NCBI GenBank assembly: GCA_031269775.1
Contig: JAISYQ010000014.1
Span: 62,001 to 126,000, forward strand
DNA length: 64,000 nucleotides
Reading direction: 5' to 3'
Origin: Streptococcaceae bacterium
GTDB lineage: Bacteria > Bacillota > Bacilli > Lactobacillales > Streptococcaceae
Part shown: positions 12,624 to 64,000 of the stretch, one piece after another
Layout of the letters: the number at the start of each line of letters is the position of its first letter
How positions within the stretch are numbered: the first letter of the stretch is position 1
Position numbers and translations under genes: made by a program
Notes under the pieces: model-generated
The model's input: only the letters and a program-made list of their open reading frames with translations
What the model was told of the DNA's origin: nothing
Databases searched by the model: none

Positions 12624-13577
12624 TCACTTATCTAACAATCTCAAATTGCCGAATTTATTTTTTTGATTCTCATCAAGCTTCTCTTCTGCTTGTGCAACTG
12701 CTTGTACAAGATATTTTCTATATCGTTCTACCAAGTCAAAACTCTCAGTGGCTGCGAAAATACCAATAGCGGTATTCATCATTTCCAACCCCTTTTGTTT
12801 TTTGCCATTTAGCAAGTAGTAGTAGCCTTTCATAAATTTAAAAACTTGCCTTTCAAACATATTATTTTCATTCAACTGAGTTTTCAGTAGGGATCCTAAA
12901 TGATTTAAAAAATAACTTGCTTGAGCTAGATAATGATGTTGCAAGCAAGCATAGGAAACATTAATCAAAATTCTGATAAAAAGATTCTTTTTTTTGTAGT
13001 TTCTATGAATCTCTTCTATTTGATTAGTGAGCTCTTGAGTTATTAAGATTACCAAATTTATTTTTAATGCATTTAAAGTATTACAGAATAAAACCATCTC
13101 ACTATATCCCCAGTAATTCAAGTCCATAAAGTAATCTGCAGCTTTTTCTAAATCCTTTTCTGGAATATTATAATCAGGCTTCATCTCATTCAGAAAGGCA
13201 GATATCATAAGAATATATACATAATCTTCATTATTTAAAAAAGGTGAGTCACGCTTTTCTGCTAAAATTTTCTCTAATTCCTTAATATTATTTTCATAGC
13301 AATAATTATTTATTTTATATTGATCATAACCAATCGCTAAACCAACTTCTTCAAAAGCTAAGTCAACTTTTTTAAAAAGACGGAATAAATCCCCATAATT
13401 CATAGATGTTTTGCCATTTTCCATATTATATAAAGTCTTGATATCACAGATACCTTTTGCTACTTCTTCAGCAGTCATCCCCAAAACTTTTCTTCGATCT
13501 TTAAATAATTGGGCCACTTTTTTCATTATTTTTTGGCAACTCATTGAAGTAAAAAACATTTTATCATTATTATTCAT
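12624..13577 (-). CDS. Rgg/MutR-family transcriptional regulator
   Basis: This protein has an N-terminal helix-turn-helix (about residues 18-75 from the chosen start; KKVAQLFKDRRKVLGMTAEEVAKG, DIKTLYNMENGK) and a long alpha-helical C-terminal domain of the type that binds peptides in Rgg, PlcR and PrgX regulators. The ATG at 13577 is preferred because TGAGGAAC lies about 8 nt upstream; a TTG 45 bp further upstream lacks such a site. Length is 317 aa, a little above the usual 280-300. It points away from a 970-bp gap that contains tiny ORFs. Confidence 0.75.
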   Translation of the reverse strand: MNNNDKMFFTSMSCQKIMKKVAQLFKDRRKVLGMTAEEVAKGICDIKTLYNMENGKTSMNYGDLFRLFKKVDLAFEEVGLAIGYDQYKINNYCYENNIKELEKILAEKRDSPFLNNEDYVYILMISAFLNEMKPDYNIPEKDLEKAADYFMDLNYWGYSEMVLFCNTLNALKINLVILITQELTNQIEEIHRNYKKKNLFIRILINVSYACLQHHYLAQASYFLNHLGSLLKTQLNENNMFERQVFKFMKGYYYLLNGKKQKGLEMMNTAIGIFAATESFDLVERYRKYLVQAVAQAEEKLDENQKNKFGNLRLLDK

Positions 13578-13852
13578 ATCCAAGTTCCTCACATAATAAA
13601 TTATTGGTAAGCTTTTGCACAAAAGTAAATCTTTAAATATAATTGCAATGGATTTATAAATAGTTATTTTTATATAGATAATTTAAATTTTCAATATTTC
13701 ATATAATATCATAAAAATTAAAATTAAGATGTATTGTAATAAATTTCCCAATAGAATTTTACTCTTAGTAAACATTTCTTAAAAGAGAAGTGAAAAAATG
13801 AAAGATAATGAAAGATTATGTATATTAAAATAAATGGAGAGAAAGATAGATT

Positions 13853-13939
13853 ATGAAAAATTTTATAGCTCAACATTACCAATTAATTAGCATATTATCA
13901 CTTGCTGTTATACTATTTAGGCCGCATACTACATGTTAA
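13853..13939 (+). CDS. Small hydrophobic peptide, 28 aa, divergent from the Rgg-like gene
   Basis: The ATG has GGAGAG 11 nt upstream. The product begins MKNFIAQHY, continues as a hydrophobic stretch (LISILSLAVILF) and ends RPHTTC. The size and position fit a pheromone precursor for an Rgg regulator, but the C-terminus does not match the known SHP, ComS or PapR patterns I can recall. An alternative is that it is the first part of a frameshifted membrane protein, because a +1 shift near 13919 continues in a plausible frame to 14051. A 22-codon ORF starts at the stop (TAATG, 13939). Confidence 0.3.
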   Translation: MKNFIAQHYQLISILSLAVILFRPHTTC

Positions 13940-14240
13940 TGTTTATACTAAAATTATGGCATTTAATAATAACAGCTTCATTGTTTTTACATGTCTTGAA
14001 CACATGAAAAATAAAAATCTTTTAGAGTTTGCTAGCGATGAGCAATTTTAACAATGTTTTTTATTGCGCTATAAGGTCTGTTATGATCTTCTAATACAGA
14101 TTTTATCTTACTTATTTAGTCAATTGTTTCCAAACACTATAGACTAATTACTTTATTGATGTTTTTACCGCCTATTTATAATGTTTTTGTTCCGGTGCTA
14201 TCATCACCTATTTGTTAATTTTAATATGTTGATTAATTTT
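13853..14240 (+). pseudogene. Possible decayed membrane-protein gene
   Basis: If one frameshift near 13919 is allowed, the 28-codon ORF continues as RILHVNVYTK...LLEFASDEQF up to a stop at 14049-14051. Further on, at about 14145-14216, another fragment reads LITLLMFLPPIYNVFVPVL, a typical transporter-like membrane helix. These pieces lie in order on one strand and look like remains of a transporter, but I cannot name the family. Confidence 0.25.
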
Positions 14241-14350: not shown

Positions 14351-14545
14351 ATATATCGTCAAAAATCTCAAGTGAGGGGGTTGATTGTGATTTTTAATTT
14401 TTTCAGTTTTAACTGATACTTGACCTTTAAATCATCTGATTTAACAGAAATTTCAGATTTATTCTATCCAAAGTTGTTCTGTAAACATTATAGTTTGTTA
14501 TTATTGGTGGTGAGATATAGCTGAGATTTGAAATTAGGAGAAAGA

Positions 14546-15556
14546 ATGGAAATTGTAAATATTACTCCACGTGGCTTTTGTTATGGTGTTGTGGATGCAA
14601 TGGTGATTGCTCATAATGCTGCATTTGATGAAAACTTACCACGTCCGATATATATTTTAGGGATGATTGTTCATAATAAACATATTACTGAGAGTTTAAA
14701 AGAGATAGGCATTTATACAATTGATGGAGATAATCGCAAAGAGATGCTAGATAAGATTAACTTTGGAACAGTAATTTTTACTGCTCATGGTATTTCTCCT
14801 AAAATAGTTCGTTTAGCCAAAGAAAAAGGCTTGAGAACAATTGATGCTTGTTGTCCTGATGTTAAGATTACACATGATTTGATAAAAAAATATGTAGATG
14901 ATGGGTATGAGATCATCTATATTGGGAAAAAAAATCATCCAGAACCAGAAGGAGCCATAGGTGTTGCACCAGGGAAAGTACATTTACTTGCAAAATTAGA
15001 AGAAATAGCCTTGCTATCTTTAACAAGTGAAAAGCTTTTTGTTACAAATCAAACGACAATGAGTCAGTGGGATGTAGCAAAGATTATGGAGGCACTTAAA
15101 AGTAAATATCCGCAAATGATAATTCATAAAGAAATTTGTCATGCTACGCAAATTCGTCAAAAAGCAGTAGTAAAGCAAGCTAAGAAGAGCGATTTAACGC
15201 TAGTGATTGGAGATTCTAGAAGTAATAATACCAATCGTTTAGTACAAATTTCAATAGAGCAGGCACACGTTCCTGCTAAAAGAATAGCAGATCTTTCTGA
15301 GCTTAATATAGAATGGTTGAAAGATGTAGAAAAAATTGCGATAACTGCGGGTGCTTCAACCCCAACAGCAATTATTCGAGAAGTTGTCAAATTTTTAGAA
15401 CAATTTGACAATAATCAACCTGAAACTTGGGAAAAAAATGCAAAAATTACGAGTGAAGATATTTTACTTAAAGTAAGAAAAAAGAAAGATTTAGCGGCAA
15501 ATCGGGTCAAGAAAATGCAAAAATTACGTGTTAAAAATGGATTAGTAAATTTTTAA
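14546..15556 (+). CDS. ispH: 4-hydroxy-3-methylbut-2-enyl diphosphate reductase
   Basis: IspH is the last enzyme of the MEP pathway and reduces HMBPP to IPP and DMAPP with a 4Fe-4S cluster. The three cluster cysteines are in RGFCYGV (Cys12), DACCPDV (about 103) and [10 protein letters not shown] (about 194). The family motifs [18 protein letters not shown] and AGASTPT are present. The protein is very like Bacillus IspH. The ATG at 14546 has TAGGAGAAAG directly upstream; a TTG 18 bp earlier overlaps that site and is unlikely. Its stop overlaps the rqcH start (TAATG). Confidence 0.95.
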
Positions 15557-17410: not shown

Positions 17411-18505
17411 TCAATCAATTATACCTGTTTGCAAAAATTGTTTGTGCATCTGATTAATTTCAATTTTTAATTCATCAATCATTTTATTTTCTGGTACAGT
17501 TTTAATAATTTGGCCTTTTTTAAATAATACGCCTTTGCCATTCCTGCCTGTAAGGCCGATATCTGCTTTTTTTGCTTCTCCCGGGCCATTTACCGAACAT
17601 CCCATTACTGCTACAGTAATGGGCATTTTTATTTTTTCAATATAACTTTCAATCTCATTAGCAATTGAAATCAGATCAATTTGCACTCGTCCACAAGTTG
17701 GACAAGAAATTAATATTGCCTTATCTTCTATTAATCCATACATTTTTAATATTATACGAGCTACTCTGATCTCTTCTACGGGATTAGCCGAAAGTGATAC
17801 TCGCATAGTATTTCCTAATCCTAAATGCAGTAAAACTCCCAAACCAGCTGCAGATTTAATCATTCCGGTATATAATGCTCCAGATTCTGTAATCCCTAAA
17901 TGTAGTGGATAATTAAACATAGTGCTTGCTAACTTATAAGCTTCAATAGTTAGAGGAATACTTGAAGCTTTCAATGAAATTATAATATCATAAAATTCAA
18001 ACTCCTCTAATAAACGAATATTTTCCAATGCAGAATCAACCATTCCTTGAGCAGTTGGAGATCCCGTTTGTTTAAGAAATTTTTTTTCTAGCGAACCTGC
18101 ATTAATTCCTATTCGAATTGGAATTCCTTTTTTCTTACAAGCTTTAACTATTTTAGCAACACGATCATTGCGTCCAATATTTCCAGGATTAATCCGAATT
18201 TTATCTACACCTTGTTCAACAGCTTCTAAAGCTAGGCGATAATCAAAATGAATATCGGCAACTAAAGGTATCGAAATTTTTGATTTAATTGCACTTAAAC
18301 ATTTTGCAGCTTCCATATCATAAACAGCAACCCGCACTAATTGACATCCTGCATCTATAAGACGATTAATTTGTGCAATTGTTTTTTTAACATCTGTTGT
18401 CTTTGTCGTACACATCGACTGAATAATAACTTGATTACTCCCACCAATGATCAAATTTCCAACTTTAACAGGACGTGTATTTTTTCTACATGTTACTGAA
18501 TTCAT
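17411..18505 (-). CDS. ispG: (E)-4-hydroxy-3-methylbut-2-enyl-diphosphate synthase
   Basis: IspG converts MEcPP to HMBPP, the substrate of IspH, which lies 2 kb away. The TIM-barrel portion shows [21 protein letters not shown] and RINPGNIG. The iron-sulphur cysteines are in ISCPTCGR and [12 protein letters not shown]. Length is 364 aa. The ATG is fixed by the family N-terminus. A TIR element ends about 12 bp upstream: its AGGAGG lies 15 nt from the ATG, too far for a normal site, and only GAAG is closer. The 148-bp gap to rqcH contains no clear terminator. Confidence 0.95.
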
Positions 18506-45843: not shown

Positions 45844-46146
45844 ATGAGAATAAGAAAATTTAAAAATATCATTGTAACCATCACTCTGTTTCTAGGAATA
45901 ATTTGTTCAATTCCGGCATTAGCGGATACAATTTATTATAAAGGATATGCAGTTTATTGGAACTATGGTCGTTTTTGTCCTTTGAGAGATTGGAGTTTTT
46001 CTGAGGTTCAAAGTTCAAATTTTGATCATACTGCAACAGCAAATTCTGTATCTTCTGGATGGCAACCACCTTGTGTTGTAGCGTATGCAAAATGTCATAT
46101 TGGTGTTTTAGGTCATGCAACAGCCGCTTGGAATTGTCGCGGTTAG
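45844..46146 (+). CDS. Lactococcin 972-family secreted bacteriocin precursor
   Basis: The 100-aa product has a Sec signal peptide (MRIRKFKN, hydrophobic core, then IPALA) with predicted cleavage after Ala27, leaving 73 residues. The mature part shows the family layout: YYKGYAVYWNYG, a WSFS segment, DHTATA, then VAYAKCHIGVLGHATAAWN. Members form a bacteriocin that blocks cell-wall synthesis by binding lipid II. The mature peptide has four cysteines (45, 77, 84, 98), unlike the classical peptide. A perfect AAGGAGGA site precedes the ATG. The next two genes are the expected immunity/export partners. Confidence 0.8.
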   Translation: MRIRKFKNIIVTITLFLGIICSIPALADTIYYKGYAVYWNYGRFCPLRDWSFSEVQSSNFDHTATANSVSSGWQPPCVVAYAKCHIGVLGHATAAWNCRG

Positions 46147-46187
46147 TTGAATAATAAAAAAGAGGAATTTTGAGGGATAAAAATAAA

Positions 46188-48401
46188 ATGAGACGATTGT
46201 TACCAGTAGGAAAGTTGAAATATTGTGTATATCTTTTAATTATCATTCAAGGAATTTTACTAGCAACTCTAACTTCTTGTTTTCTAGATCAAAAATACAA
46301 AAATACGTGGAATTCATATCCCAATAATGGAGAATATCTTTATATTTCTCAAGTTTCCTCTGTTCATGAGGAAAAAGTTTCTCAATATTTATTATCGGAA
46401 GCTATAAAGCAATCTTTGTTTTTGGTAAGAATCGAAAATGATCAAGAATGTGGAATTTCTTCAAAGATAAAAATAGGAGTGGAGGGAGCTTTTCAGTCCA
46501 ATGAAGCAGAATTTCATTTTTTAGATCAAACATTGCTCGATTTTCATAAATTAATGACTCTTTTTCAATCAAAAAATATTAAAAGTACTTTAGGTGTAGC
46601 AAAGGGTAGTGCTTATTGTGTAGGAGAGTTATCTTGTTTGCGTTTTGGAACGAAGGTTGTCATTGAAAAACTTTCTCAGCTTATCAAAGAAACTCATACA
46701 GTGAATGGAACTTATCGAGTTGTAGGATGGAAATCTGACCAACAAAAACAAGCGTTTATTGACCAACTTGCACAAATGATAGGAAATTCGGATAAAAGTT
46801 TTCTTTTTGCTCAGAGTGGAAATTATGTCAATGACCCATTTTTATTAAAAATTTTGATTGCATTCATTTTATTGGCAGGTTTTGTTCTTTTGATTCTTTT
46901 GATGGTTTTAGCGGCTCAAACATTGGGTTCGTTAGGAAAGTTCATACTCCTAGGTTGGTCAAAAATGAGTGTAGTTTATTCGCTGTTTCAACCATTTGTC
47001 CTGGTATCTATCGGCTTTCTTCCATTTTCTGTTCTGCTTGGTTATTGGTTGCTTGGAACGGTTCCTTTTTCTTATTCATTACTTAGCTTTTTTATCCTGA
47101 CAGGTATGGCAAATGTGTTCTTTCTGTTATTGTTATGTACGTTAGTCAGTGGAATTTTATTGTTGATTCGTCCAATTGATGCCATTCATCAACGAATTCC
47201 TCAAAAGATACTTTATGCGTTTGGAATTTCAACTTATCTCTTGATTGGAATAGGATTGATTGTTACTTCTTCTTATATGGATAATTTTTTTCAAGAATGG
47301 ATCGACAATCGAGAATTATATAAAAAATGGGAAAAAGTTTCTAATTATCACATATTAGGAGATCTTTCTTTTGAAAAGGATGCTTCGTCTGCTATGGGAG
47401 GGGCAAAACAATTTGATTTAAAATTTTATCGTTGGTATCAAGCCATTGCAAATCGAAAAGGAGTTTATTTGATTCACACAATGCATATCGATGAAAAAAT
47501 ATTACATTTATGGCGTGAAAATCAAGTGTATGATTATATCCCTGAAGAAAGTTTTTGGACTTATAGTGTCTCAGCAAATTATTTATCTCAGCTGAATGTT
47601 TCATTATCAAAGCAAACGCTTGAAGAAGTCACACGCGGAGTTCGATTATATTTGCTACCTAGCAATTTGAAAGGTAGCAAACGTCAAAATATGGTGAACT
47701 ATTTGCAAGAAAGTACGTTAAAAGGTCTTCAAAAAGATGATATTCCTACAAATTTTAATCAAAATCAACAATTTTGTTTCCTTAATTACACTCCTACAAA
47801 AGGGATATTTCATTGGTCAACTGAAAAAGCGACGGAGAAAATCACAAAAGCACCAATTATTTATGTGATGACTCCTCAAAACATGACATTTAGAGAATCG
47901 GAAAGTTTGTATTCAATTGGATTAGAGAATAATTATTTAAAATTTGTCGATCACAAAACAATGGAGCAATGTACTGAAGAGCATTTTTTACAAAAGTTTG
48001 AGTTATCTAAGAAAAAAATGAAATTCATTGGAATTTGGGAATATATTGATGGTCTTCAAAAAGACCTTTTAACTACTACTCAGTTGCTAGGTGGAATATT
48101 TTTATTTTTAATGTTATTGGCTGTGGCATTGTTGCTAACATTGGCAGGTGTTTTTCGATTGGCAAACCAAGAAAAAATTTATGTGCAAAAATTTTTAGGC
48201 TTCGGATATTGGCAAACTTATCGTATTTCCATTTTTTTGTTGGCAAGTATTGTTGGTTTAGAGTTGTTAACAGTTATTTTAATTCACTCCAGATTGGGAA
48301 TGATCTTTTTAGGAATGGTTGGAGTGATTCAATTTTTTGTGTTGTGGAAGTATGTAACAAGAAACGAAATCAAGCAATTAATATCGTATTTTAAAGAATA
48401 G
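46188..48401 (+). CDS. Bacteriocin-associated 7-TM integral membrane protein (DUF1430 type)
   Basis: This large membrane protein (737 aa from the ATG at 46188; TTG 46170 is possible) has an N-terminal helix (about 12-34), a long extracytoplasmic region, three or four helices at about 215-370, another large loop and a C-terminal block of helices. The architecture resembles FtsX-like permeases and the membrane partner found with lactococcin 972-type genes, proposed to give immunity or export. The stop codon TAG uses the first bases of the TIR element that follows. Confidence 0.75.
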   Translation: MRRLLPVGKLKYCVYLLIIIQGILLATLTSCFLDQKYKNTWNSYPNNGEYLYISQVSSVHEEKVSQYLLSEAIKQSLFLVRIENDQECGISSKIKIGVEGAFQSNEAEFHFLDQTLLDFHKLMTLFQSKNIKSTLGVAKGSAYCVGELSCLRFGTKVVIEKLSQLIKETHTVNGTYRVVGWKSDQQKQAFIDQLAQMIGNSDKSFLFAQSGNYVNDPFLLKILIAFILLAGFVLLILLMVLAAQTLGSLGKFILLGWSKMSVVYSLFQPFVLVSIGFLPFSVLLGYWLLGTVPFSYSLLSFFILTGMANVFFLLLLCTLVSGILLLIRPIDAIHQRIPQKILYAFGISTYLLIGIGLIVTSSYMDNFFQEWIDNRELYKKWEKVSNYHILGDLSFEKDASSAMGGAKQFDLKFYRWYQAIANRKGVYLIHTMHIDEKILHLWRENQVYDYIPEESFWTYSVSANYLSQLNVSLSKQTLEEVTRGVRLYLLPSNLKGSKRQNMVNYLQESTLKGLQKDDIPTNFNQNQQFCFLNYTPTKGIFHWSTEKATEKITKAPIIYVMTPQNMTFRESESLYSIGLENNYLKFVDHKTMEQCTEEHFLQKFELSKKKMKFIGIWEYIDGLQKDLLTTTQLLGGIFLFLMLLAVALLLTLAGVFRLANQEKIYVQKFLGFGYWQTYRISIFLLASIVGLELLTVILIHSRLGMIFLGMVGVIQFFVLWKYVTRNEIKQLISYFKE

Positions 48402-48621
48402 ACCTCCTCTGAAATTAGGTTATAACGAGAATTCGTTTCAATTTTTTCCTAAGGACAAGGAAAAAAACTTAAAGATACGTGGTACTATTTTGAGGCTTTT
48501 TGACGCTAGAGGCACGGCTTCTAGGTGATGGATAAAAGAAAATGAACGAAAGTGAATTTTCTGTCGCCGTCAGGGAAAAAGAAAACGAAGTTCTCATACA
48601 TCTAATTTTTGAAGAGGTCTA
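48399..48621 (+). mobile_element. MITE-like TIR element, copy D (inside the bacteriocin operon)
   Basis: This 223-bp element begins TAGACCTCCTCTGAAATTAG and ends CTAATTTTTGAAGAGGTCTA, inverted repeats with TA at both outer edges. Its interior is nearly identical to copy B. It lies exactly between the membrane-protein gene and the ABC ATPase gene. Removing it with one TA would leave AAAGAATAATGAGGGAGATC, restoring a TAA stop and a short, normal operon junction. Confidence 0.9.
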
Positions 48622-49296
48622 ATGAGGGAGATCATGAAAGCAATTGAATTGAAACATGTGTGTAAGCGTTATAAAAATCGGAGTATTTTAGAAAACATTT
48701 CGCTAACAATTGAGGAGAGAAAGTTCATTTCGTTAGTAGGACCTTCAGGATCTGGAAAATCAACCCTATTGAATATGATTGGTTTATTGGAGACGATTGA
48801 TGAGGGAGAGATTTTTGTATTTGGGCAAAAACTTCCGAATATCAATTGTCGAAAAGCAACTTGGATAAGGCGAAATGTAATCAATTATTTGTTTCAGTCA
48901 TTTGCCCTGATTCATAATTTAACTGTAGAGCAAAATTTAAATATTGCAATGAATTTTGTAGATTTTCCCAAGAAAGAAAAACAGAGGAAGTTGAAATTGA
49001 TTCTTGAGCAAGTGGAATTAACTCCGTTTATTCAGGAAAAGGTCAACACACTTTCAGGTGGTGAGCAACAACGAGTTGCATTAGCGCGAGCCATGCTAAA
49101 GCCTGGAGATTTGATTTTAGCAGATGAACCAACGGGATCGTTGGATGAAAAATTGGCGGAAAAAATATTTAAATTGTTGAAAGATTTAAGTACACAATAT
49201 CAAAAAACGATTGTGATGGTTACACATGATTCAAAGTTAGCACAACAAGCAGAAGTTCAGATTGATTTGGCACATTTTTTGGAGAAAAAGAGATAG
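48622..49296 (+). CDS. Bacteriocin export/immunity ABC transporter ATPase
   Basis: This is an ABC ATPase of the MacB/LolD-like group that accompanies lactococcin 972 clusters (224 aa). Walker A GPSGSGKST is at 40-48, signature LSGGEQQR near 140 and Walker B LILADEPTGSLD near 160. It probably works with the preceding membrane protein. Two starts are possible: ATG 48622, preceded by AGAGG contributed by TIR copy D, or ATG 48634 with the native GAGGGAG. Cysteines and lysine-rich tail are unremarkable. Confidence 0.88.
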   Translation: MREIMKAIELKHVCKRYKNRSILENISLTIEERKFISLVGPSGSGKSTLLNMIGLLETIDEGEIFVFGQKLPNINCRKATWIRRNVINYLFQSFALIHNLTVEQNLNIAMNFVDFPKKEKQRKLKLILEQVELTPFIQEKVNTLSGGEQQRVALARAMLKPGDLILADEPTGSLDEKLAEKIFKLLKDLSTQYQKTIVMVTHDSKLAQQAEVQIDLAHFLEKKR

Positions 49297-59788: not shown

Positions 59789-60850
59789 TTAATCTGTTAT
59801 AGCAAAATGCAAAATATTTTTTAATTTTTTATGAAGATCTTGAATTGCTTTTGGTTTTGCTAGCGATGGTGAGTGATTATCTAACAACCATGTCTTGGCC
59901 CAATGAGTTTTACTTACTTTAAACTTTGGTGGTTCTTTTTCAAAATCAATAATCATAGCATATGGATTTCGAGATGCGAACGCATCACCTTTAATTTTTT
60001 TGAATAAAGAAGGAGGGGATCCAGGGATTGAAAACAATTCTGCGCCTTTTTTTCCTAACTGTGGCAAAGAAGATAATAAACTCCATGTATAAGGATGTTT
60101 GGGATCATAAAAAATCTCTTCAACCTTTCCATATTCAACAATCTCTCCAGCGTACATTACGGCCACTTTATCAGCAATTGATGCTACAACTCCTAAGTCA
60201 TGTGTAATAAAAATTACTGTAAAATGATGTTCTTTTTGCAACTCTTTAATTAAATCCAAAATTTGTGCTTGATTTGTTACATCTAATGCTGTTGTTGGCT
60301 CATCACAAATTAAAATCTTTGGTTTACATGCTAAAGCAATAGCAATTACAATTCTTTGCCTCATGCCACCTGAATACTGAAATGGATATTCATCAAAACG
60401 ATCTTTAGCATTAGTAACCCCAACCCGATTCATTAAATCAATAGCATTTTTTTTTGCTTGTCGTAGCGTTTTACCTTGATGCTTTATCACAACTTCAGAA
60501 ATCTGCCTACCAATAGTTATAATTGGATTTAAAGAGGTCATCGGATCTTGAAAAATGGTTGCGATTTCTTTACCGCGAATACGCCCCCATTCTTTATTTG
60601 TTTTAATATTTGTTAAAATTTTTTCTCTATAAATAACCTTTCCTTTAGAAACTCTCCCATTTACTTCTAACATTCCTGTAAATGTCTTAGTCAGTACTGA
60701 TTTTCCAGAACCAGACTCTCCTACCAATGCTAAAATTTCTCCTTCATATAAATCAATAAAAATATTACGAATAGCTGTTAAAATGTGATCTCTAACTTTA
60801 AATTGCACACTTACATTTTTTGCTTGCAGTATCACTTTTTTATTTAGCAT
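59789..60850 (-). CDS. oppD: Oligopeptide ABC transporter ATPase OppD/AmiE
   Basis: This ATPase drives peptide uptake (353 aa). Walker A GESGSGKS is at 44-51, signature YSGGMRQR near 173, Walker B ILICDEPTTALD, and the C-terminal oligopeptide/dipeptide extension includes PGSPPSL and RNPYA. It follows oppC by 9 bp with AGGAGGTAA upstream. The second ATPase, OppF/AmiF, which normally follows, is absent: the next gene is liaR on the other strand. Confidence 0.94.
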   Translation of the reverse strand: MLNKKVILQAKNVSVQFKVRDHILTAIRNIFIDLYEGEILALVGESGSGKSVLTKTFTGMLEVNGRVSKGKVIYREKILTNIKTNKEWGRIRGKEIATIFQDPMTSLNPIITIGRQISEVVIKHQGKTLRQAKKNAIDLMNRVGVTNAKDRFDEYPFQYSGGMRQRIVIAIALACKPKILICDEPTTALDVTNQAQILDLIKELQKEHHFTVIFITHDLGVVASIADKVAVMYAGEIVEYGKVEEIFYDPKHPYTWSLLSSLPQLGKKGAELFSIPGSPPSLFKKIKGDAFASRNPYAMIIDFEKEPPKFKVSKTHWAKTWLLDNHSPSLAKPKAIQDLHKKLKNILHFAITD

Positions 60851-60859
60851 ATTTACCTC

Positions 60860-61792
60860 CTACAAATGTGTTTTAGGATCCGCTGCATCAGCTAAGCGTT
60901 GGCCAACCAAATAAAGCGAAACAGTTACAAGTGCTAGCACTGTCACAGGAATCCAAAATAAATAAGGATAATTATTTATATTCAGCGAATATTGATTAAT
61001 AATTCGTCCAAGAGAAGGCGTATCTATAGATAAACCAATACCTAAAAACGATAAAAATACTTCATAAGAAATAAACTCTGGCAATTGTTTTGCAGCATCT
61101 GTCATAATAACCGAAATCAAATATGGAAAAATATTTTTAAGAATCAATCGCCACATCTTAACCCCTAATGTGCGTGATGCTAAATTATATTCACGATCTC
61201 GCATAATCATAACTTGTACACGAATCAAATAAGCAGTTTTAAACCAAGAAGTACAAGTCATCGCAAATAATAAATTCCAAAAACCTGAACCAAAAGCATA
61301 AGATAAAACAATTACTATTAACAATTGCGGAATATTAGAAATAACATTATAAACTTCCAGTATAAAACGATCGATTCTTTTTGAACTTCCCCAAATTGCC
61401 CCAATAATCACTCCTAAACTTTCGCAAACAAACATTGATAAAATACCAATTAAAATCGATGTTCTAGCTCCTGCCCACACAGCATCAAATAATGATTTAC
61501 CATCAGCATCTGTCCCAAACCAATACTTTGCTGAAGGAGGATTATAACGAGCCTTAAAGTTATTAATATTGGTAACATCTAACAAATTATATCCTGAGAA
61601 TATTGGTTGAAAAAAGCTCATCAAGACAACAATCATCATAATAATCACGATCACAAGCGCTATCTTTGAACTAAAAAATTTTTGAAATACCGATTTCCAG
61701 TAAGAATAAACCGGCGCATCAATGTGTTCACTAGCTAAATAATCTACTTTAACAAATTGAAATTTTTCTGCTGGAATTTCTTTTTTATCCAT
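60860..61792 (-). CDS. oppC: Oligopeptide ABC transporter permease OppC/AmiD
   Basis: This is a membrane subunit of the peptide importer (310 aa). The N-terminus (KFQFVKVDYLASEHIDAPVY) is typical of AmiD-type proteins. Six helices follow, with a binding-protein-dependent transport signature near residues 200-225 (ASRTLGVKMWRLILKNIFPY). It starts 5 bp after oppB with AAAGGAGG upstream. Confidence 0.93.
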   Translation of the reverse strand: MDKKEIPAEKFQFVKVDYLASEHIDAPVYSYWKSVFQKFFSSKIALVIVIIMMIVVLMSFFQPIFSGYNLLDVTNINNFKARYNPPSAKYWFGTDADGKSLFDAVWAGARTSILIGILSMFVCESLGVIIGAIWGSSKRIDRFILEVYNVISNIPQLLIVIVLSYAFGSGFWNLLFAMTCTSWFKTAYLIRVQVMIMRDREYNLASRTLGVKMWRLILKNIFPYLISVIMTDAAKQLPEFISYEVFLSFLGIGLSIDTPSLGRIINQYSLNINNYPYLFWIPVTVLALVTVSLYLVGQRLADAADPKTHL

Positions 61793-61797
61793 ACTTA

Positions 61798-63297
61798 TTA
61801 CTTACCTCCTTTTACACTTAAATTAATTCGCGGATCCATCATTATCATCAATAAATCACCAATAAAGACTCCTATCACCGCGAGTAATGTAAACAGAAAA
61901 ACCAAACTAATGACCATCGAATTATTATGGACAATAATTGCATCAGGTAACATCTTTCCCATACCTGGTACTGCAAAAATGGTCTCCGTCATCGTGGCTC
62001 CTTGAATTGTTAAAATAATCATTGTTGGAACATTCTGCACAATTGGAATTGATGCATTTTTTAATATATGATTTTTAGAAATTTCGTACTCTGATAATCC
62101 TTTTGCTCGAGCAAATTTTACATAATCAGCTGATTGTTGATCAATCATATAACGACGTGTCCACATTACAGTATTAGTGATATTAAGAATTGCCAAAATC
62201 AAAGTTGGTAAAAAATAAGAAAAAATATTTTGTGCGCCCAATGTGGGGAATAGATCAGGCCAACCAAAAGCACTTGATCCAATAAAACGCAGGAAATAAA
62301 TAATAGCTAATGAAGGAATCGAAATTAATAGAGTAATACTTGCTGTTCCTATTTTATCAATCCAACTTGATTTAAAATGTGCCATTAATACGGCTAGCGG
62401 TATTCCTAGCACATAAGCAATCATCAATGAAATAAGGCCCACCTTAAGAGAAATAGCTATCATTGAAGGATCTTGATAAAAATTCTCTGTCTTTGAATAA
62501 AAATCTTTTCCAAATCTTGCTCTAGTAATATTATCCATCTTCTTTAATGGTTGATACCTAGCGGTATGAATATTGATAGGGGAAATTTGCTTTTTTCCTG
62601 TAGGAAAAGTCATTTCACTTGCAATTGTTTCCCCTTGACCATTTGTAATTACATCCATCACTTTACGATTTGCAAAAGTAGGGAAAGATTCGCCTAAATA
62701 TAAATGTATAATATTTTGATGAATAAAAGGAAAATGCTTATCAAAATACACTTGATATTTATATTTAGTCCCACTTCCAATTAAAGTAAAACCATCAATT
62801 TTATTATTTGTAATCTTATATCCTCGTTTTAAGTTTGGATTATCTTTATCATGTATATACCACGGATGATCAATTTGGATTAATTTACCATAAAAACGAC
62901 AAACGCGTTCTAAAAGTGGAATCTCACGTGTTGCATAAAATTTTTTTGAAGTTGGGAACTGTTTGATCTTCCAATATCCTCGTTTATTTTTTGCCCATTT
63001 ATTATAGATACCTTTATTCTTTTTATTAATCTCAACATTTACTGATTTATCTGTTTTTTCTGCTTTTCTTTGCAAAGCTTTAGAATCTAAATAGTCAATA
63101 TAACCCATGAGGCTAAAGATACTATTTTCATAATCTAGACGTGAATCTTGTGTTTTTGTCATTTTGGGATACACAGGATCAGTAGAAAAAACAGATCTTC
63201 TAGGTACCAACGAAAAAACCATAATGTAGGTAAGCGTTATTACCAAAAAAATGGAAATAAATGATCTCAATAGGCGACCTAATACGTAACCTTTCAC
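61798..63297 (-). CDS. oppB: Oligopeptide ABC transporter permease OppB/AmiC (long form)
   Basis: This is the first permease subunit (499 aa). The N-terminal helix (about 10-30) is followed by an extracellular insert of about 240 residues, as in streptococcal AmiC, and then six helices with AKGLSEYEISKNHILKNAS, the EAA-like loop. A normal OppB is about 310 aa; the insert is a Lactobacillales feature in my recollection. It is separated from oppA by 324 bp. Confidence 0.93.
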   Translation of the reverse strand: MKGYVLGRLLRSFISIFLVITLTYIMVFSLVPRRSVFSTDPVYPKMTKTQDSRLDYENSIFSLMGYIDYLDSKALQRKAEKTDKSVNVEINKKNKGIYNKWAKNKRGYWKIKQFPTSKKFYATREIPLLERVCRFYGKLIQIDHPWYIHDKDNPNLKRGYKITNNKIDGFTLIGSGTKYKYQVYFDKHFPFIHQNIIHLYLGESFPTFANRKVMDVITNGQGETIASEMTFPTGKKQISPINIHTARYQPLKKMDNITRARFGKDFYSKTENFYQDPSMIAISLKVGLISLMIAYVLGIPLAVLMAHFKSSWIDKIGTASITLLISIPSLAIIYFLRFIGSSAFGWPDLFPTLGAQNIFSYFLPTLILAILNITNTVMWTRRYMIDQQSADYVKFARAKGLSEYEISKNHILKNASIPIVQNVPTMIILTIQGATMTETIFAVPGMGKMLPDAIIVHNNSMVISLVFLFTLLAVIGVFIGDLLMIMMDPRINLSVKGGK

Positions 63298-63480
63298 ATT
63301 TTTCCTCCAATTATATTTTCTGAAAATCTACTCTTTCTAAAAAGTTTACCTACTAAACATAAGTAATTCAACATTTATTAGATTTGTTCTAAAATTAAAA
63401 TATGATTAAAATTGTGTACAATTTTTTCCTTAAAATGAAAAAAATGCAAGAATAGTTATTTTTTGTGAAGCTATCATTTC

Positions 63481-63517
63481 CAGATTTGCAATCAAACAAA
63501 GTTTGAAAGCAAATCTG
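63481..63517. promoter_or_regulatory. Two-tier stem-loop in the oppA-oppB spacer
   Basis: CAGATTTGC (63481-63489) pairs with GCAAATCTG (63509-63517), and inside CAAAC pairs with GTTTG around AAA. On the minus strand no T-run follows, so an RNA-stabilising or processing structure downstream of oppA is more likely than a classical terminator. Confidence 0.5.
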
Positions 63518-63564
63518 AGAATTGGATAATTTTTTTAACGAAATATTAAGGAAAAAGAAGCGCA

Positions 63565-63595
63565 ATTTTTATACCCTAATTTTAGCAGAGGTCTA
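63565..63595 (-). repeat. Partial end of the TIR element
   Basis: The sequence TTTTTATACCCTAATTTTAG then AGAGGTCTA matches the same end of copy C (TATACCCTAATTTCCGAGGAG) and ends with TA, 26 bp from the oppA stop. The remainder of the element is not recognisable upstream. Confidence 0.5.
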
Positions 63596-63621
63596 TTGTA
63601 TTAAATGATCAAAATTCTTGC

Positions 63622-64000
63622 TTATTTTTTTTCATCTAAAATCTTTGCCATAGTAATTTTTTTATCAGAAGCTTTCTGTGCTTTTTTATATTGTTTTACC
63701 GTTACAATATCATTTTGAAGTTTTACATATTTCCATCGCGGATATCGTAAGTTAACAAAAGCACCAATTCCAACTGAAGAATTTGACCAACTAAATGGTT
63801 TGATCTTTAACATACAAGGGATAACTTCTTTTCTTATTGGTATAATATATACATTATTCAAAAGATAAGCTTCTGCTTTAGAAAACGCTTTGACTCTATC
63901 TGCTTGCTTATCAATTTGCTTAATTTTATTAGCTTTAGCTAATAATTCATCATATTTATCCAAACCGATTGTTTTAACAATATCTTTATCTACATCTGTA
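63622..64000 (-). CDS. oppA: Oligopeptide-binding protein OppA/AmiA (C-terminal part)
   Basis: The reading frame is open to the window edge, so the gene starts beyond base 64000; the TTG at 63963 is internal. About 125 residues are visible. They match the C-terminal end of family-5 peptide-binding lipoproteins: a LDKYDELLAKANKI helix, AFSKAEAYLLNNVYIIPI, and VNLRYPRWKYVKL. It would be the first gene of the opp operon. Confidence 0.88.
   Translation of the reverse strand, partial: TDVDKDIVKTIGLDKYDELLAKANKIKQIDKQADRVKAFSKAEAYLLNNVYIIPIRKEVIPCMLKIKPFSWSNSSVGIGAFVNLRYPRWKYVKLQNDIVTVKQYKKAQKASDKKITMAKILDEKK

Follow-up and report, generated by a model that had tools for sequence, protein, structure and literature searches.

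The window analysed here is a stretch of 64,000 nucleotides from the genome of a Streptococcaceae bacterium (1.2 Mb in 32 contigs). It contains a gene for an Rgg-type regulator and, divergent from it, two very short open reading frames of 11 and 28 codons (Table 1). This layout had been described in an initial annotation of the DNA and was confirmed in the current work, in which the regulator matched both Pfam Rgg_C (1.6e-33, above the 27-bit cut-off) and TIGR01716 (RGG_Cterm; 1.1e-33, above cut-off).

Table 1. Features of the rgg locus and of the oligopeptide importer, in positions of the window.
Feature	Position	Strand	Remarks
Rgg-family peptide-sensing transcriptional regulator	12624..13577	-	317 aa from ATG 13577; frame open to TTG 13622
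Divergent intergenic region, promoters of both genes	13578..13852	.	Putative operator (weak), TTTACT-CTT-AGTAAA, around 13757-13772
11-codon ORF	13798-13833	+	Divergent from rgg; no family counterpart seen
Putative pheromone precursor, 28 codons, MKNFIAQHYQLISILSLAVILFRPHTTC	13853..13939	+	Leave-one-out profile match
Decayed second peptide gene in tandem, SIVSKHYRLITLLMFLPPIYN...	14120..14215	+	Leave-one-out profile, E 1e-3; without usable start or RBS
oppD, oppC, oppB and 3' part of oppA (continues past the window)	59789..64000	-	No other OppA-type importer of oligopeptides detected genome-wide

At its full extent the rgg frame covers 12624-13622 of the minus strand from a TTG start, and the ATG at 13577 is the likelier start because a GTGAGGA Shine-Dalgarno-like stretch precedes it. 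The deduced protein has the two parts of an Rgg regulator, an N-terminal HTH and a C-terminal Rgg_C TPR-like domain; the match to HTH_3 (0.003) is below cut-off. Its top sequence match in the PDB is Rgg2 of Streptococcus dysgalactiae, an SHP receptor (E 6.7e-17), and RopB is a weak match (E 0.0023). The structure predicted from a 6-row alignment has a mean pLDDT of 82. When this fold was searched with Foldseek, the SHP receptor Rgg2 was again the best match (E 1.9e-10), with Rgg144 and Rgg3 near the top and ComR only distant (TM about 0.4). The window's own genome contains 16 Rgg matches at E 0.01, many of them partial or broken, and among 40 relatives searched at E 1e-20 the regulator was matched in the five genomes of the genus only. 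Six Rgg loci were obtained from a scan of named genomes, which are MAGs titled Lactobacillales or Streptococcaceae bacterium. Their isolates are Cd354_bin51, Gsp477_bin117, and Cc175_bin59, codes that, together with the accession blocks, presumably denote termite-gut metagenome bins.

No model in Pfam or NCBIfam matches the 28-aa peptide. A family of similar peptides was detected by collecting, for every Rgg gene, the upstream short ORFs that carry a ribosome-binding stretch, and aligning them. The recurrent divergent ORF beside Rgg genes begins with MKKFxxKHYxLI and continues with a hydrophobic stretch, PP, and a few variable residues; the N-terminal motif MKKF..KHY.LI is conserved across the family, and the C-terminal PP is found in nearly all copies. 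In the loci taken, 21 strong copies (>40 bits) were counted. Family peptides are 25-33 aa long, except for a tandem copy that reaches 45 aa, and tandem peptide genes are also present at loci L096, L097, and L087.

The window peptide was left out when the profile was rebuilt for scanning the window, so that circularity would be avoided. Among the 3041 window frames of at least 12 residues, only 13850-13936 (the 28-codon ORF; 20.0 bits, E 1e-4) and 14120-14215 (16.6 bits) passed the inclusion threshold, and both are beside this Rgg; the top score in 30 simulated 64-kb sequences was 13.3 bits. The segment 13400-14600 is overlapped by 18 frames of 20 aa or more, as might be expected if both short ORFs were random open frames in AT-rich intergenic DNA. 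For the 28-codon ORF this explanation is opposed by the leave-one-out profile, the simulations, and the purifying selection described below for the family, and as an account of both frames it is very improbable. Judged from its sequence, the 28-codon ORF is not a product of chance. Randomness is probably the right explanation for the 11-codon ORF, which had been proposed as part of the pair: no counterpart was seen upstream of rgg in other modules, and the frame was dropped as a pheromone candidate and is probably incidental. The ribosome binding site that had been assigned to the 28-codon ORF is present as GGAG, but it lies 13 nt 5' of the ATG and is weak, weaker than in most family copies.

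The window peptide has only one close paralogue, MKNFIAQHYQLISILLLAVMLFSPLTTC, which is located on contig C10 of the same genome beside an Rgg remnant missing most of its length. The two peptide genes differ by four codon changes, all four non-synonymous and all in the C-terminal half. Another degenerate peptide copy in this genome, MKNFMNKHNKLILTV... (L084 3306-3599; G000 contig C25), is beside a short Rgg remnant.

The range of the peptide family appears to be narrow. The profile detected it in four of the five genomes of the genus; in the remaining one (G004, 88% complete) Rgg homologues are present and no peptide match was obtained. Over 295 genomes of the wider family at E 0.05, 19 were positive; the four belonging to the genus reached E 1e-11 or better, and the E-values of the other 15 were 0.0018-0.049. 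These 15 outside matches equal the chance yield of about 290 genomes, and an extension of the peptide family beyond the genus was rejected. The literature search returned no paper with the peptide motifs, no paper joining Rgg, a short hydrophobic peptide, and termite, and no matching prior description for Rgg in insect symbionts.

Of the strong copies, 16 of 21 are divergent to an Rgg frame of at least 299 codons (13 Rgg genes, three of which have tandem peptides); among the remaining five, one faces an Rgg cut by a contig end (L090) and two face Rgg remnants (L083 and L088). Two strong copies (L089 and L094) are within 300 nt of a contig end. The earlier proposal that the 28-codon ORF is a pheromone partner from an unfamiliar family is thus supported by the divergent position of this family beside Rgg in four of the five genomes of the genus. 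Nine Rgg loci have the N-terminus but no such peptide (L004, L005, L006, L008, L011, L016, L019, L026, and L029; the upstream sequence at L011, L019, and L026 is at most 450 nt), so a second set of Rgg genes is without this peptide. Distances among Rgg proteins and among peptides are correlated over 14 pairs (Mantel r = 0.80, p 0.0001, a p value that ignores the duplication of modules as units). Because the modules were duplicated as units, this correlated divergence reflects co-inheritance and not necessarily binding.

Selection differs between the two halves of the peptide. In eight disjoint close pairs, pN/pS is 0.14 in the N-terminal half (Fisher 1e-8) and 0.93 in the C-terminal half, with synonymous/nonsynonymous counts of 20/12 versus 26/62 (p 0.0014). 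The values for all pairs of the largest group, which are not independent, are 0.19 and 1.35, respectively. Rgg dN/dS is 0.18-0.36 in 17 comparisons. These ratios indicate purifying selection on the N-terminal but not on the C-terminal part of the peptide; a constrained leader joined to a freely changing tail is the pattern that a pheromone precursor would be expected to show. Conservation of the 28-codon frame next to Rgg homologues, which the initial annotation had suggested checking, is therefore found at the level of the family, in the N-terminal half. Conservation of this particular pair in sister species is not: the closest Rgg to the window copy has 42% identity, while neighbouring genes are 79-85% identical to genes of G002 and G003, and the window pair is without a close orthologue there.

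The modules are dispersed. Within the KHYGLI group, a common segment of about 1.3-1.5 kb recurs in differing neighbourhoods of G003 and G001, mostly with 84-94% DNA identity between copies, and no constant target gene was found among the neighbours of the family peptide genes, nor a constant immunity or exporter gene. In the sister genomes the mutL–ktrB and ispH–rqcH blocks that flank the window copy are both conserved but not adjacent. The 2 kb that separate these blocks in the window had no match in the sister flanks compared, so that no clean empty site was seen. No terminal repeats or target duplications could be defined at module boundaries. A mobile carrier was sought and rejected, as 600 pattern matches in viral contigs gave 0 confirmed relatives and plasmids gave just two distant Rgg/MutR matches (22-24% identity). 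A GTGTAC...GTACAC hairpin has seven matches in the 23 loci plus the window, six at the ends of KHYGLI modules in G003 and one elsewhere in the window. The module-end copies, each followed by T-rich sequence, are at L092 6449 and 7948 (on both sides of the module), L089 3060, L090 7143, L091 3622, and L094 4370.

In the intergenic region, TTTACT..AGTA(A/G) occurs 62-81 nt 5' of the peptide ATG in the window, L097, and L087. Of 2000 shuffles, 1359 contain a 6-bp inverted repeat of the TTTACT-CTT-AGTAAA kind. A shared operator was rejected, since none was found in all module groups and the inverted repeat of the window is of a kind expected by chance.

Other genes of the window are also of note. 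Two enzymes of non-mevalonate isoprenoid synthesis, IspH and IspG, are encoded at 14528-15556 and 17411-18505, respectively, both over NCBIfam cut-offs; the genome is placed near Streptococcaceae, a family in which the mevalonate route predominates. At 45844-49296 of the plus strand, a 100-aa secreted-looking protein and a 743-aa membrane protein, neither with an NCBIfam match, are encoded together with an ABC ATPase. The best NCBIfam model of the ATPase is TIGR03608, for export ATPases of lactococcin-972-type bacteriocins (241 bits, just below the 254.85 cut-off). This region is probably a bacteriocin locus.

Candidate genes for export, processing, and import of a peptide signal are present in the genome, with matches over cut-off to EcsB (4.4e-104), RseP (5.9e-82), and OppA (1.0e-36). 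One RseP/Eep, one EcsB/PptB, and one OppA-type protein were counted. By analogy, the OppABCD genes in the window are a candidate route of pheromone re-import. No OppF was recognised in the genome by OppD similarity (the next match is 34%), which counts against a standard importer. The best NCBIfam models of OppB, OppC, and OppD are those of the minimal-mycoplasma Opp (MMSYN1_0165 to 0167), with OppC above cut-off.

Three kinds of known systems come closest to the present family. In PMC13361665, Rgg/SHP groups I and II are described as having divergent peptides with a conserved Asp (I) or Glu (II), and Rgg2/SHP2, Rgg3/SHP3, and RovS are given as streptococcal systems of these groups. As in these groups, a short hydrophobic peptide gene with an N-terminal Lys and basic N-terminus faces rgg divergently, the nearest solved structures are Rgg2 and Rgg3, and Eep/RseP, EcsB/PptB, and OppABCD types are present. 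Unlike them, the 21 peptides have no conserved Asp or Glu (a single D is found, at the C-terminus of L095), the family has a fixed N-terminal motif of the (K/Q)HY-x-LI kind and a PP-containing C-terminus, and no constant target operon accompanies its multiplied, dispersed modules. In group III, according to the same paper, shp is convergent and overlaps the 3' end of rgg, whereas the window peptide gene lies at the 5' end of rgg in divergent orientation. The leaderless peptides (LCPs) of the SIP/RopB type, described there as 8-10 aa long, are likewise divergent from an Rgg-type regulator; the window peptide, in contrast, has 28 codons and belongs to a family with a leader-like, conserved N-terminal half under purifying selection. 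ComRS shares with it an Rgg-like cytoplasmic receptor and a short peptide, but the double-tryptophan motif of ComRS peptides, named in a reference title in PMC9765709, is absent from the family, and ComR is distant in fold. On this comparison, the family was filed as working like, and being closest to, Rgg/SHP groups I and II, without membership in either. Since the SHP Asp/Glu is lacking and the family is found in this genus only, it is counted as a new form of Rgg–pheromone signalling.

The region 12624-13939 is probably an Rgg–pheromone module and one member of a dispersed family of the genus. The precursor translated from the 28-codon ORF would combine a hydrophobic core with a fixed N-terminus that is positively charged. 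By analogy with SHP systems, the precursor may be exported by the EcsAB/PptAB-type transporter, trimmed by Eep/RseP at a predicted site to a C-terminal signal of about 7-9 residues, and re-imported via the single Opp importer. For MKNFIAQHYQLISILSLAVILFRPHTTC, the mature signal is predicted to be the C-terminal 7-9 residues. The signal would bind to the Rgg encoded divergently, in its TPR-like pocket, and this regulator could then alter transcription from the peptide gene itself (autoinduction) and, probably, from unlinked genes.

The hydrophobic core, charged N-terminus, and variable C-terminus, with no SHP-typical Asp or Glu, would also suit a membrane-active product, toxin- or bacteriocin-like, that is merely regulated by Rgg. 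Such a product is unlikely, because the peptide genes sit at a receptor gene or its remnant and have no constant immunity or exporter neighbour, the regulator matches SHP receptors, and change is focused at the C-terminal end while the PP motif is mostly retained. A more likely alternative is that the window copy, a true Rgg–pheromone pair by descent, has gone out of use, with an intact Rgg and a peptide gene drifting to loss. The weak RBS, the RP in place of PP, and the decayed tandem copy point this way, as do the C10 and C25 copies of the same genome, which are relics, and the many further Rgg copies in it that are broken or partial; on the other hand, the Rgg is of full length with a well-predicted fold, and the peptide frame has kept a suitable length as well as the conserved motif at its N-terminus. 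Disuse is a real but doubtful possibility. Within the reading of the region as a member of the pheromone family, the copy is a divergent one (RP replacing PP) that may be starting to decay, as the lack of a close orthologue in sisters, the weak RBS, and the RP suggest; its state may reflect either a change of specificity or decay.

Regulators are usually lost from reduced genomes of host-associated bacteria, so it is surprising that these pairs have been retained and multiplied in genomes that measure about 1.2 Mb. Tentatively, an uncultured small-genome lineage near Streptococcaceae may carry dispersed, multiplying receptor–pheromone cassettes of roughly 1.3-1.5 kb with no fixed target gene, in which the leader is constant and the signal tail varies between copies. 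Such cassettes could spread by copying within the genome and diversify into private signalling channels, with decay of some of them, as in the window's genome. The family would add a peptide class with a KHY leader and a PP tail to Rgg signalling outside cultured streptococci, and its duplicated receptor–signal pairs form a natural series that allows new signalling specificities to be traced step by step as they arise.
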